A DNA stretch of 64,000 nt, taken from positions 6,381,246 through 6,445,245 of the forward strand of contig NC_087081.1 of assembly GCF_026151205.1 (NCBI RefSeq), read 5' to 3'. Origin of the DNA: Bolinopsis microptera. Its lineage: Eukaryota; Ctenophora; Tentaculata; Lobata; Bolinopsidae. Position 1 is the stretch's first letter; each line of letters starts with the position of its first letter. Positions 4,153-54,153 of the stretch are shown in pieces. Under the pieces are notes generated by a model that worked only from the letters and a program-made list of their open reading frames with translations, was not told the origin of the DNA and ran no database searches. The position numbers and the translations under genes are program-made.

Positions 4153-6443
4153 GGTTAAACTTCCACTTAATTTTTACTTAGACTTTTATTCTTACGTTTG
4201 TCGATCCCTGATCCTAACAGATAATGGACTGTATAAATGAGATAATATAACTTTAAGCTAACAAGATAACTATGAACTAAGAATTTCTATTTCAGGTGAT
4301 AACCGGAATTGAAAATGATGTAGGTGCATGTTCATCGTAGTCGATCATTGTTCAGTCGTACAACCGTCAAAAAATATGGGGAAAATGAAGAAAACTGTTC
4401 AAATTTTATATTTATGATTTTAAAACTTACTTTTAAGTTTTTAAATTGCATGACAAAAATTGGCATCTGATTTAACACTTTTGTGGCGGCATTGTAGTGA
4501 CATTATTGTAGTGACATTATTGCATATTGGCTTATGTCTTTTTGCTATCTTAAGTTATGTCTTATAGTTATTGCTTATCGTATTTTTCTTATAGCTAAAA
4601 TATTTACTCACTCATCATTTATCGTTTTTAATTCTGTGAGTCTACTGTTAATTATTGGAAAGATAAAATGCTGACATTATGCAACAGACAGTTAGTTAGT
4701 TTGCTAATTATAGGATAATATGAAATAGAAAACTTGGCAAGGATCAACAATTAATTACAAATAAGTAATGTGGGTTATTGAATCCTCGAGTCTGGTAATT
4801 GTCCCGAAATACTAGGTATCAACTCGAAAGCAACCCAAAAAGATTTTACAGCAATTCATGGATATAATCAGATACTCCGTAAGCATGACACATTCCTGCG
4901 GCGAACTTTAATACAGCACCACAGACACCCCCATGCAATCTCATGCATTGGTTTGAGGGATACTGGGAGGTAGTAGTAATACGGTGAACTAACAAATACT
5001 GATACTCCGTCATCGTTTAACCGTTTGTATGGCATCATTTCGCGGGTAATGCCCCCAGGCCCCCTATTGAAGACGGTTAGCATACCTTTCCGGCGTGTTT
5101 TCCCGTGCCCAAATGTGTTCTTCCTCTGTTTCCCAGGATCCTACTACGTACCTGAGATGCCATGCTGTATACTCAAAGAATGGCCAGAACAGCACATCTT
5201 CTTCAATCTTGAGTCTTCACTCCATCTCATGGTAGCGTAGTTGGTTAATCATCGGATTTGTAATCGTGAGATTGCGAGTTCGAAACCCACTGCCTGCCTA
5301 GTCGTGGGGTGAGTGTCGTCGACATTCAGCTAAAGATCCTGAGTGGTCTATGCAGCCCCCCGGTCTACTCAGCCGAATATTCGAGAAATCGTGTGTGAGG
5401 GTTAAATGAGAAGCTGTCCATTGCAGCGAAGTCTCGGGCGAAGAAAGTATGGTACACACTACCTTAACCGTCACTGGCCTAATTAAATCCTTCGGCTTCC
5501 TGTAATTGGCTAGTTACACTTGTGTAACAATGTGGCTGTTGGAATACTCCGAAGTAAAATAAGTGTGAGATAAAAAATGTAGGTCTGGTACCTTGCCTCC
5601 CAGTCGATCATGTTTCTTCCGACAGCGCTGGCGCGTATTTTGTGTGCAAATTTCTTAAAAACCTCCAAATATAAACTATTTCTTATTCCTGTCATCTTTA
5701 ACATTTAATTTTAATGTTTTGAGCTTAAAATATGTCTGCTAAACGACTTCTGATGAGTCTTAATACCTGCAAAAACAGTAAAGAGGTATACTAGTGAAGG
5801 GGGGTATAATAGTATGGATGGTATACTGGCGACGGTCGTGCTTGCCAGCACTGTGATACAAGTAAAAATGAAATGGTTCTTTAGTTTTAAACGATTTCAA
5901 ATGACATTTTCATTTCCATTATGGTAAATAAGTTTGACCAGTCACCATTCAGTTTCTGATCCAATAATGTAATCGGTGATTGTTACCCGCAATCAATCTA
6001 ACACTTAAAGATTATAATAAACGAGTTATAAAAACCAAATAAATAAAAACCCCTTAAAGCAGATATTAGATCTAAAACGGCTTTGGTTTATTGTTTTAGT
6101 TTTAGGTGTTTAGATCCTAATAGCAAATGAAGATTCAGAACAGTTACTCTATCTTTGGTGTCTTCTAATCAGTCTTATACTCTTATAGTTCAACTGTTAA
6201 TCTTTGAAGTGGTCTTCTTTGACCTGATATTGAATGTAGTGGAAAACAAAATATTACTTCAGAAGAGTCTCCTGACCTCTGTAAAGCTATAAGACCACTG
6301 AGATTAAAAACAATCTTTAACCATCGTCCCATACTGCAATTGTTCTGTGAACAATGATAACGGTAAAAAAACAGTTTCAATCATTATACTCATAAAGCAC
6401 TGTCCTTTTTTCGTATTTACACTTGCTCAATATGAATCCACAT
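4153..6443. other. Intergenic stretch, mostly featureless apart from one SINE
   Basis: This separates the 3' ends of the converging Ig/PAN gene (+) and the three-helix membrane protein gene (-). Apart from the SINE at 5222-5558, I see only AT-rich sequence with short ORFs of no recognisable content. Confidence 0.6.
5222..5558 (+). mobile_element. tRNA-derived SINE, copy A
   Basis: The head resembles a tRNA gene, with a box A-like GGTAGCGTAGTTGG and a box B-like GCGAGTTCGAAACCC. It is followed by a body of about 270 bp ending in GGAATACTCCGAAGTAA. The same head-body-tail order and near-identical length occur inverted at 57373-57709, so the unit is a dispersed element and not a tRNA gene. The body carries CCTGAGTGGTCTATGCAG and TAAATCCTTCGGCTTCCTG in both copies. 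Confidence 0.85.
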
Positions 6444-49054: not shown

Positions 49055-50134
49055 CCCCCCCCCCCCCTAAAATGTCACCCACCCCTTAGACGCCACTCTT
49101 GATTGATTGGATCCCATCTTCTTAGAAAGTATCTTACCTAATCATTTGTAACTCCTAAACATAAAAAATATCATTCAGACCCTGCCACATCCTGAAATTG
49201 AATCTAAATGATGCCATAAGGGCATTTTTTTCACTTTGTACGAATTTTTTACTTTTGAAAAAAAGCGCACAATTTTATAACTCTGGAATTCATTAATATT
49301 AACTCAGTTTTGGTCTAGGATAGTGATAATTACATATTTTAGCAACTTTGTACATATGACTGGAGATATGGAAAGTTATACATTACTCAATATTACTACC
49401 CTCCCCTAAAATGTCAACTGGCCGCCCCCTAAAATGTCATTTTATCAGATTCTGGCTTTGAGACTACAAGCACCATAAAATGGAGGTACCAGCCTATTAA
49501 ACATCATATTTAGCATCTAATGGTAATATTGGAAAGCTTTGGCAGCTCAAGGAATTAGTTTTATTTTATTAATCGCAATAAAAATCCCCTAAAATGTCTA
49601 ATTATCCCCCCTAAAATGTCATTTTAACCTGATCAAATTACTCAGGCTTTTCCTAAGATGCAATGGGGGGGTACCAATGGCATAAATGGCATAATGGAGA
49701 ATTGGCCAAGCAAAATTTCCATTTATGCCATGAAATTTCTATGCCATTTGACGATTTTTATGCCATTTGTCTCCATTTTATGCCATTCGAAATATGAAAT
49801 TTTAAAACTTTGAACTGAGAATTTAATAACGAATAGTCTGCACCCCACTAGTACTGTCCACCTTTATCTCTATTTGTTGTACTGACCCTGGTCATTAGAA
49901 ACACCCCTAAAAGTTCGTTTTTTGACAAAAAATTTAAAACTTCTGTAATTTCATTTCTGTTTTAGTTACGCATTTGATTTTTGGTATGCGTATAGAAAAT
50001 CGATACGGCTTTAAAATGAGATGTTCGGCGACCTCCTAGCTCACTCACTAGACTCAGTAGGAGTGATTTAACTGCGAGGGACAATTGAGGCTAACAAATT
50101 AGCCTCACCACTTTCAAAAAAGAACTTTCTCATG

Positions 50135-51065
50135 TTACGTCCATGATATCCAAGTTGCAAGTATAATCCATAGTGATTATACTTGATCGAGATCTAAGCT
50201 TTAAATATTCGAGGTGAAAATGAGGCTAACCACCTTTTGAGAGGGTGAAATGAGGCTAACAAGTATACTTTTGTGTATATTTTCGAGTTGGTTCGGTATT
50301 GTGACTATCTAATATGTCAACAATAAAGATTGATTCATCCTCTTCAAACTCAACATTTCAGAAATCGCCGAGTCTACTTGTAGGAGGCCAAAATGAGGCT
50401 AATAAATAATTCGACCGCATTTTAACTTTAATGTACGGAAACAGGTTAACAGCTCACACGTACCGTTACTTGATATCCATGTTGCACATGAAATTCCTTG
50501 GGATTATATTTAATCGGTATTTAAGCTTCAAATATTCGAGGTGAAAATGAGGCTAACCACCTTTTGAGAGGGTGAAATGAGGCTAACAAGTATACTTTTG
50601 TGTATATTTTCGAGTTGGTTCGGTATTGTGACTATCTAATACGTCAACAATAAAGATTGATTCATCCTCTTCAAACTCAACATTTCAGAAATCGCCGAGT
50701 CTACTTGTAGGAGGCCAAAATGAGGCTAATACAAAAATTCGACCGCATTTTAACTTTAATGTACGGAAACAGGTTAACAACTCACAAGTTACTTGATATC
50801 TATGTTGCACATGAAATTCCGTCTGATTATAGCTTCAAATTTTCGAGGTGAAAATGAGGCTAACCACCTTGTGAGAGGGTGAAATGAGGCTAACAAGTAT
50901 ACTTTTGTGTATATTTTCGAGTATGTTCGGTATTGTGACTATCTAATGTGTCAACAATAAAAATGTATTCATCCTCTTCAAGCTCAACATTTCAGAAATC
51001 GCAGAGGCCAAAATGAGGCTAATAAATGATTCGACCGCATTTTAAGTTTTAACTTTAATGTACGG
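50135..51065. repeat. About 310-325-bp tandem repeat inside the 3.2-kb transposon, about three copies
   Basis: Each unit has GTGAAAATGAGGCTAACCAC, GGGTGAAATGAGGCTAACAA, a TTTCGAGTTGGTTCGGTATT block and GGCCAAAATGAGGCTAATA. Units begin near 50203, 50529 and 50836. The motif ATGAGGCTAA occurs about ten times and also at 50089 and 51185 in variant form, which would fit multiple protein-binding sites. Confidence 0.88.
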
Positions 51066-51556
51066 AAACATGTTATAGCCCACTATAGAACTTATAATTG
51101 TAGCCCGAAGGTTATTGACTATTGAGACTTTATCGAAACTTATGTGAGGTTGGATTGAGGCTACTTTCCCTCCTTGAGGCAAAATTGAGGCTAACAGATA
51201 CACTACGCAGACAATTGTCACTGTGCCAGCTGTCAAGTAGTTGCTGAGCAGCAGCAGCAGTTAGATGAAGAAAATGAAGTTGAGGAAGGAAATGTATTAG
51301 AGCTGTTGGCTAGAGTAGGCCCCTTACTTCTATGGAGCTCTCTGGCCAATTGCTCTGGCAATGCTCTCCATGGGGCCATGTAATATCACATGATCTGATA
51401 TCAAGCCAAATTAGACTCTAAACTATAAAGTATAATAAAAATGGAACTGTTTGAGAAAAAACATTTTTCGTTACTTGGCAAGAGAATACTTACTCAGCTG
51501 TCAGCATAACGAATCAGACGTACCTTGATCTTATATGTACTTGTGACGGTCTTGTT

Positions 51557-52201
51557 TTGTATTTAACTCTGCTGAAGAAGCAATTCCCTAATGCTGAAAT
51601 CGTCACTTATTACCTTGGAAGTGATCAGAATGAGCAGCTGTTTGCATTTATTCGGGTTTCTTTTTCATCTGGTCGCTCAAGAAATATGGATGCGATAACT
51701 ATGGCCCATGGAATGGAGAGAAAGAATGTGTACAGTGCTTTATCATTACATGAAGACACATTTGCAATTGCACATGCACGTGAAAGTACAGTTTTGTATC
51801 CTACAGTTCACCTCAAAAAGGTTAAATCTACAGGCCAGAAAGCAGAACGAGTGAAATGGACTGGTGGTATGATAAGCCTAGGCAAGTTGGCAAAAACGCT
51901 GGACAGGGCATCGAGGGACTGCATTCGAGAAGGGAAAAGAAACAATTTCCCTGTGTTCGCCGCAGTCGCAGATCCTGAAGAACGGAGTGGGAAGCCAATC
52001 GTCCATGGCCAAGAACTTTCTTGGGAAGCTGTAGATGATGAAGCTGGATGCCTCGAGGATGAGGACGACTTAGCTTATGAGGTAGAACCTGGAGTTGATG
52101 ATTGTGATGATGGAGAAACGATATCAACAGATAAATATGGAACACTATCCTTCCGGTCTTTTGAGACACTCACGCTCAATGGAGGAAGAAGCACTTTATA
52201 G
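51557..52201 (+). pseudogene. Probable transposase fragment of the 3.2-kb element
   Basis: A frame of about 214 codons with AEIVTYYLGSDQNEQLFAFI and GRSRNMDAITMAHGMERKN, followed by an acidic tail. The GSD..EQLFAFIR pattern resembles the region near the last catalytic residue in DDE transposases that carry an E-x-x-F-x-x-x-R motif; this is family resemblance, not proof. No full catalytic domain is present. Downstream, other frames carry on (EEEALYSFINKISSFK at about 52180, then VRIYNQPECGCST from 52260), suggesting frameshift decay. The element is probably not autonomous now. Confidence 0.5.
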
Positions 52202-54153
52202 CTTTATCAACAAAATCTCGTCTTTCAAGATTCAAGGGGGACGCGTTTGGAGTGTCTTCTGATGTTCGCATATACAATCAACCTGAATGCGGATGTTCAA
52301 CAGTTTTGAAAGCTGGCAGTACAGAAACTCTTAAAGTCTTCAAATCTCAGCAGGACTTTGCAACAGGAGTGGTTAGATTTATTTCTTACAAGTCATGCCC
52401 GATGAAGTACTACTGCCAGGAACATAGCCTAATCAATGGATCTCCTAATGTTTGGCTACTCGTCGAAGACAAATACATCAGATGCATTGTTCCTTGACAT
52501 TCAAAATCGTTGTGTTGTCAATGTTTGTATTCTTGAATAGTGAAATGTTTGGTATATATTTGATATAATACATTTCTATTTTCTTTATTTAGTTATTTGT
52601 CATATGAATCTTTGACTTTAACGATCATTCCAAGCGTTATAAAGCATGAAACATGTCTCTTATTCAAGTACTAATAGTATTTGCGAATCTAAAGTCATCC
52701 TAAAGGTCAAATATGAAGACCTAAATTAATGGCATAAATTGGCATAAATGGAGAATTGGCCAAGCTAAATTTCCATTTATGCCATGAAATTTCTATGCCA
52801 TTTGACGATTTTTATGCCATTTGTCTCCATTTTATGCCATTGGTACCCCCCCGATGCAATGCATACTCACATTTCGTTAATAGTTGATGTTAATAATTAA
52901 CAAGTGCCAAAACAAGAGCTATTATCGCACACCATGCGAACAAAATATAAATTTGACATTTTAGGGGAGAAAAAAAAGACATTTTAGGGGGCATATCATA
53001 GGTTTACCATAAACTAGTAAGTACCAAAAACCGTAGTTTTTGACATTCAATTTTGCTAAAAGCAGTCAAATCTAGTCTATAGAGAAGGTCAGATCGATTA
53101 CTGGGTTGGCTTAGTTAACTACAGGTCACTAAAATTGCCAAAATGCAGGATGATGTTAAAAATCCCAAAAAATGCAATTAAAACATGCAATTTGCACAAG
53201 GTTAAAATCACATTGAATCCATTTCTTTTGTGCCAATTGTTAGTTTATAACTAGATAATCTAACTCTAGATATCTACAGGTGTTAATTTTGTTGACTGAG
53301 TTACTGTTTTGCCGTAAGTTCTGGGTATTCAAAAAAAAGTCCCCAAAATGTCACAAAAAGTAAATTGACTAAATTCCACCATTTTTTTCAACAGAGAGAA
53401 ATTCTAGTCTACACAACCTGTTTTACCTGAAGTTTTAGGGGTGGTGCACGTGACATTTTAGGGGGTGATTACGGTTTTGAGGTACTTCCTTTAGTGAGTG
53501 AATGTTTTCAAGTAGCTTAATGTTTTAATAAGACAAAACAAATAGTTCTAGTGACAAAAGATAAATCAGGCCTCCTGTACATTTTGTAATTATCACACAT
53601 ATAGAAATGACATTTTAGGGGTGGTGTTTTAAAACGAACTCCATTTCAACGTCAAAAAAATTGTACCTTATTCTATTTTCAAATTTCCAAATCTTGGCAG
53701 GCTAGAAAAAGATTTAGATATTATTCCTAGACACTTCAGAACCCTGTAAATTTAGCCCTAACTCTGCAATCTGGGCCCCAAAAACATGTTTCCAAATCGG
53801 ACACAAATGTTTCCACGAACACGGATTAATCTTATGCGGCGAGCGCGATCTGTTTATACTGATAAAACCCCTAAGTGTCAACAACTTTGAAAGATTTTTA
53901 GCGCCGCGCGGTAATACACGCATTTACAAATTTTTACCCCCCTCCCCCCTTCCGTAATCAACCGTTATCAAGACCCAACCCCCCCTCCTGACAGCAAAAG
54001 TACGTAATCATGGCCTGACCCCCCCCCCCCCCTTGATTATTTTCCTAGAAAACACTTTATCTACGTTTCATGCTACCCTGATCATGCTATGATGATGAGC
54101 CGAAATCATTGTTATGATATCCGGCCAAGCAACTTCTAAACTACTTACTACTG

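Follow-up and report, generated by a model that had tools for sequence, protein, structure and literature searches.

A recently moved, internally deleted DNA transposon with G-run ends in the ctenophore Bolinopsis microptera, and its candidate P-like relatives

The element described here lies in a stretch of 64,000 nucleotides from the genome of Bolinopsis microptera (NCBI RefSeq assembly GCF_026151205.1, contig NC_087081.1, positions 6,381,246 to 6,445,245 of the forward strand), which we call the window and whose own numbering is used throughout. It has ends of the cut-and-paste type, a target site duplication, an empty site and dispersed copies, and it has lost most of its transposase. We consider it probable that this is a non-autonomous copy produced by internal deletion and that its transposase is of a distant P-like (P/THAP9) lineage or a sister of that lineage, membership being unproven.

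The element spans positions 49665-52852 of the window (3188 bp; Table 1). A preliminary description had recognized a DNA transposon with an exact 8-bp duplication and 22-bp terminal inverted repeats (TIRs) that open with seven G. Both features are as described: GATGCAAT stands on either side of the element, and the exact reverse complement of the left TIR GGGGGGGTACCAATGGCATAAA is present at the right end. The direct block reported inside each end at roughly 105 bp is also there, although it measures 95 nt, with 99% identity between the two copies. It is an imperfect palindrome with GGCATAA motifs on either strand. The foldable ends that had been proposed were recovered fairly well on the right (DNA fold z -3.9 relative to shuffles, and -3.1 for the other strand), whereas the left end folds weakly (z -1.9). 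The interior holds a 266-nt sequence present in three direct copies, and a disrupted reading frame. Between 50076 and 51199, a 24-nt unit containing ATGAGGCTAA or TTGAGGCTAA occurs eleven times, and the copy number of the repeats in this region varies among copies of the element. The 266-nt repeats and the 24-nt units (GAGG...TGAGGCTAA) occupy the place where the upstream part of a transposase would be expected.

Table 1. Features of the element and its flanks, in window coordinates.
Feature	Positions	Strand	Basis
Left flank, within a high-copy host repeat	49391..49664	.	Joined-flank search
Left 8-bp target site duplication GATGCAAT	49657..49664	.	Sequence inspection; one copy in the joined-flank query
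Left TIR GGGGGGGTACCAATGGCATAAA	49665..49686	+	Core found 210 times genome-wide
Left subterminal block	49693..49787	+	95-nt direct repeat, motif counts, fold
Three 266-nt direct repeats	50144..51043	.	Self-comparison; large indels between copies here
7-bp insertion ATTGACT adjoining ATTGAGA, resembling an excision footprint	51114..51120	+	Copy alignment
Remaining frame, C-terminal part of transposase, 248 aa	51455..52201	+	E motif SDQNEQLFAFIR kept
Coding region continued past the frameshift, 110-aa frame	52165..52497	+	ORF list
8-bp insertion CTTTATAG ahead of CTTTATCA, frame-breaking, resembling a hairpin-type footprint	52194..52201	+	Copy alignment
Right subterminal block, in the same orientation as the left	52747..52841	+	Self-comparison
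Right TIR	52831..52852	-	Sequence inspection, self-comparison
Right 8-bp target site duplication GATGCAAT	52853..52860	.	Sequence inspection
Right flank, continuing the host repeat of the left flank	52861..53036	.	Joined-flank search

Copies of the element are dispersed in the genome. Besides the window element, at least six places match nearly its entire length at 94-98%, and there are many partial matches; these counts are lower bounds because 40 of 512 candidates were scored. The TIR core GGTACCAATGGCATAAA occurs at 106 + 104 = 210 exact sites in the 264.65-Mb genome, against 0 + 1 sites for the reversed control in the same genome, and its recurrence is not due to chance. Among 24 end pairs (the window included, and loci that duplicate the same place excluded), exact duplications of at least 8 bp flank 21, one is flanked by 7 bp (L016), and two were scored as having none (L004 and L028), with letters of the G/C runs counted in where the scored duplication was 9-10 bp, or was 8 bp and included a run letter. 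At L028, the 8-bp GCTACTAC is present, but with one extra base. The left G run is seven long in 17 of the 24 pairs, and single ends reach 29. Terminal runs of 24-29 G at single ends of five loci (L002, L003, L008, L024, and L054) resemble mononucleotide slippage after insertion. The genome also holds MITEs of ∼318 bp that are assembled from the element's own ends (five sequences compared). Within the listed part of the 210 sites, 24 TIR pairs span 299-353 bp by an eye count, and the six MITE pairs that were read closely (L025, L027, L029, L030, L031, and L032) have a core-to-core length of 318 bp.

The insertion site could be recognized without the element. When the two flanks were joined with one GATGCAAT (450 nt), the sequence aligned in one piece at 97-99% at 40 places in the match table (plus one 36-base scrap), of which 36 cover all 450 nt and the rest 444-449, over genomic spans of 444-460 bases; given that 40 of 85 candidates were scored, the copies number at least 40. 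Most simply, this would mean that the element entered a single member of an abundant repeat family and generated the 8-bp duplication. CCCCTAAAATGTC motifs occur several times in the repeat itself, and those on the right side are inverted. Ten element-type copies, including the internally deleted L016 and L052, differ pairwise by 0.8-2.1% (gaps uncounted). The preliminary description had suggested fairly recent movement and proposed a search for the TIRs in the same genome and for an empty site with a single duplication; both searches succeeded, and the low divergence and the empty sites agree with its suggestion. The window copy is recently moved, and because its family looks young, activity tests are realistic.

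An open reading frame had been noted at 51557-52201, with a product unlike any transposase that could be named. The frame is real, although it starts earlier and is broken: it has 248 aa in the window and 344 aa in intact copies, relative to which it is interrupted by the 8-bp insertion listed in Table 1. Frames of the 344-aa type match residues ∼604-762 of L017, a related locus whose frame has 766 aa, with 37%-39% identity, and copies of the same family retain more of the upstream protein (L053 to L017 residue ∼564, and L054, which has TIRs at either end and a target duplication, to ∼549). For these two reasons, we read the window frame as the C-terminal part of a larger transposase. The proposed profile search listed no Pfam transposase model for the product at the E limits given below; its relatives identify it as a transposase fragment. 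Of the catalytic motifs described below, the window copy has the E motif SDQNEQLFAFIR only, without either catalytic D and without D-x2-H. An AlphaFold model of the window frame alone was discarded (mean pLDDT 36.7). In a genome search in which 59 of 146 candidates were scored, no full-length transposase of the exact window family was found. The window copy itself has no complete transposase, and this, together with TIRs flanked by a target site duplication, multiple dispersed copies and empty sites, is what defines a non-autonomous cut-and-paste transposon.

It could be argued that the 344-aa frame was retained as a protein in its own right, for example as a repressor or end-binding factor, given that it is open for 344-349 aa at nine places and that there are several cysteines and one histidine at its C-terminus. 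The substitution counts make this improbable. Among 123 unique substitutions in 20 copies (some of them partly covered), 87 are nonsynonymous, 30 synonymous and six stops, that is, 70.7%, 24.4% and 4.9%, compared with 70.5%, 25.2% and 4.3% expected without selection. This shows that the frame has overall evolved neutrally across copies, without constraint, and on these counts we rejected it as a selected protein. Substitutions common to at least two copies (n = 24) are less extreme, with 13 nonsynonymous, 11 synonymous and no stop, and therefore there may have been weak constraint on the source copies. Capture of a host gene fragment, with which the absence of a Pfam transposase match would agree, is hardly credible. 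Several relatives of the frame lie within repeats that bear the direct subterminal block and G-run ends, and same-family copies extend further into the upstream part of the transposase. The preliminary description had named membership in a host gene family as an outcome that would count against a transposon; the relatives just mentioned sit in transposon-like repeats instead.

Some of the short differences among copies look like excision footprints. Among the ten aligned copies, short insertions number 21, of which 15 have lengths of 5-8 bp; nine of these 15 duplicate neighbouring bases more closely than expected by chance (p < 0.05). Junctions were typed for 12 of the 15 (an L006 variant at a shared site, CGTAC and TTATG were left out). 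Four are plain duplications. Of the remaining eight, six carry on the left the complement of the replaced base, and six carry the complement of the first base to the right, with about one in four expected by chance (a figure taken without a shuffled control). Such junction complements are the pattern left when hAT elements excise by way of hairpins. From the insertions, it seems that elements making 8-bp duplications have come and gone in these copies. We do not attribute them to the window family, because L008 carries an unrelated insertion of ∼98 bp that also duplicates 8 bp. That insertion (alignment columns 522-628) starts with TTACCTGGGG, ends with CCCAGTAA and is flanked by the 8-bp AATCCATA, and it is another small 8-bp-duplicating element, of an unrelated kind. 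Among 23 target site duplications (20 of the window family and three of the L018 family described below, without L004, L008, L016, and L028, and with some borrowed G/C letters), Y is found at position 3 in 17 and R at position 6 in 20; by eye, the footprint sites do not have this preference.

The window family is probably part of a group whose members combine a direct subterminal block with a G run at one end or at both. Four other families do so; with the window family included, five families of this genome have TIR elements that bear the block in the same orientation at both ends. The clearest is the L018 family, with the TIR GGGGGTRATGCAACGACCATTAATG (31 exact sites), a 106-bp direct block at either end (95%) and clear 8-bp duplications in three of five copies (L018, L041, and L047; L040 and L046 are less clear). 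At L017, the ends form a matching inverted repeat with nine G on the right and two on the left, and the direct block measures 79 bp (94%); no clear duplication was found in the L017 flanks. Its copy is interrupted at 5097-6224 (minus strand) by a frame that is LINE-like by eye, and frames that look like LINE reverse transcriptase or RNase H occur within the transposon copies L013 (292-3390) and L014 (2098-3525). L039 and L038 have common terminal sequence at either end, direct blocks of 50 and 46 bp, and 7 and 6 matching bases in the flanks, respectively; for their relative L037, the right end was found and the left end was not. L019, which encodes a protein fragment 47% identical to the window protein, has 17 G on the left and no run on the right, with a 103-bp direct block containing GGCATAAAAT motifs; its flanks showed no clear duplication. 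L021 and L022 have a G run at the start, and a search for their right ends found none. No matching ends were found for L044. Elsewhere in the genome, glutamate-receptor frames form clusters at C12:11782391-11809362 and C3:15860547-15936263, and several in the C12 cluster exceed 900 aa, each as a single open frame.

Read by eye, the relatives have a common residue order, D, D, D-x2-H, E, within the longer pattern D ... DGD-x2-[LM]-R ... D-x2-H-x2-KK-x2-N ... S-D-x-N-E-Q-x-F-A. The first D (in IDAT, IDST or VDAT), the second ([DG]DGD-x2-[LM]R) and D-x2-H are present in L017, L056 and L044, and the E motif in L017 and L056, L044 being broken ahead of it. In L017, the residues are D301, DGD at 438-440, D486-x2-H489 and E663, and the N-terminus has, by eye, C-x2-C ... 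H-x5-H. L056 keeps all conserved residues, split over two frames. Pfam scans at E limits of 1, 5, 10, and 10, in which the HMMER filters discard most weak matches, listed no transposase model for any of the proteins. A PDB sequence search listed no chain, P transposase included. Nor did a PDB profile search with alignment A2 return anything; that profile was weakened by a partial misalignment of the first piece of L056. The P RNase-H_N model found no match in the genome itself, and the control likewise had none. Among the titles and opening lines of abstracts listed in a literature search, none concerned the element's family, and a Repbase entry may exist. A transposase group missed by standard family models would stay unclassified, and relatives whose enzyme matched no catalogued protein family in these searches point the way to a little-explored branch of DNA transposons.

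As for the mechanism, we envisage that a DDE transposase acts in trans on the deletion copy, and that it would be supplied by the families with the common direct subterminal block and G-run termini. The enzyme may bind the repeated ∼10-bp subterminal motif (ATGGCATAAA in the window family) together with the G-run TIR, excise the element and insert it with an 8-bp stagger. The same orientation of the block at the two ends makes for a testable claim about how the transposase distinguishes left from right.

The superfamily was not obvious from the preliminary description, which suspected a poorly described family and pointed out that an 8-bp duplication would fit P, hAT or KDZ. The duplication is compatible with all three and Pfam supports none of them; the suspicion gains from the lack of any listed transposase model. 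We place the group as P-like with moderate confidence, from motif order in predicted proteins, and stop short of calling it a P element. P elements make 8-bp duplications, and so do the window and L018 families. The order D, D, [C/D](2)H, E can be followed by eye in L017 and L056, and in L044 as far as D-x2-H. The P-like assignment is made because D-x2-H and the spacing between the second D and E resemble P, though the distance between the first two D differs. According to PMC8230255, the catalytic residues of the fly P transposase are D230, D303, D339 ([C/D](2)H) and E531. The second D is accordingly 36 residues from D-x2-H in P and ∼46 in L017, and 228 from E in P and ∼223 in L017, whereas the spacing of the first two D, ∼139 in L017, is nearly double the 73 of P. 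The group also differs from P in its G-run termini, in that no THAP finger was seen, and in the Pfam scans, which at the limits given above listed no P-type RNase-H or GTP-binding model.

A very divergent hAT lineage is an unlikely alternative to the P-like placement, but one with several points of likeness. hAT transposases use flank hairpins, short TIRs, subterminal repeats and an N-terminal zinc finger. The group shares with Ac, Hermes, and Tol2 short TIRs and subterminal repeats, a C2H2-type finger read by eye at the N-terminus of L017, and the 8-bp duplication (window and L018 families); the 5-8-bp insertions with hairpin-type junctions would also fit, but may stem from elements of another family, such as the unrelated 8-bp-duplicating insertion carried by L008. 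Against hAT are the G-run termini, the D-type motif (D-x2-H) that follows the second D, and the absence of any hAT model among those listed for the scanned proteins at the same E limits and with the same loss of weak matches. hAT elements share their 8-bp duplications with Zisupton and Dileera (PMC12730594). That likeness is all that speaks for membership in KDZ (Kyakuja-Dileera-Zisupton), for which no Pfam model was listed under those limits either, and we regard it as very improbable. Tentative, too, is an undescribed ctenophore group at the level of a superfamily, with a DDE transposase outside Pfam, G-run termini of variable length, 8-bp duplications and an asymmetric end design in which one motif block of ∼50-106 bp is repeated directly at the two ends. 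The window element is like MITEs and internal-deletion derivatives (Ds, KP-type) in keeping both ends and having lost the transposase, with no notable difference.
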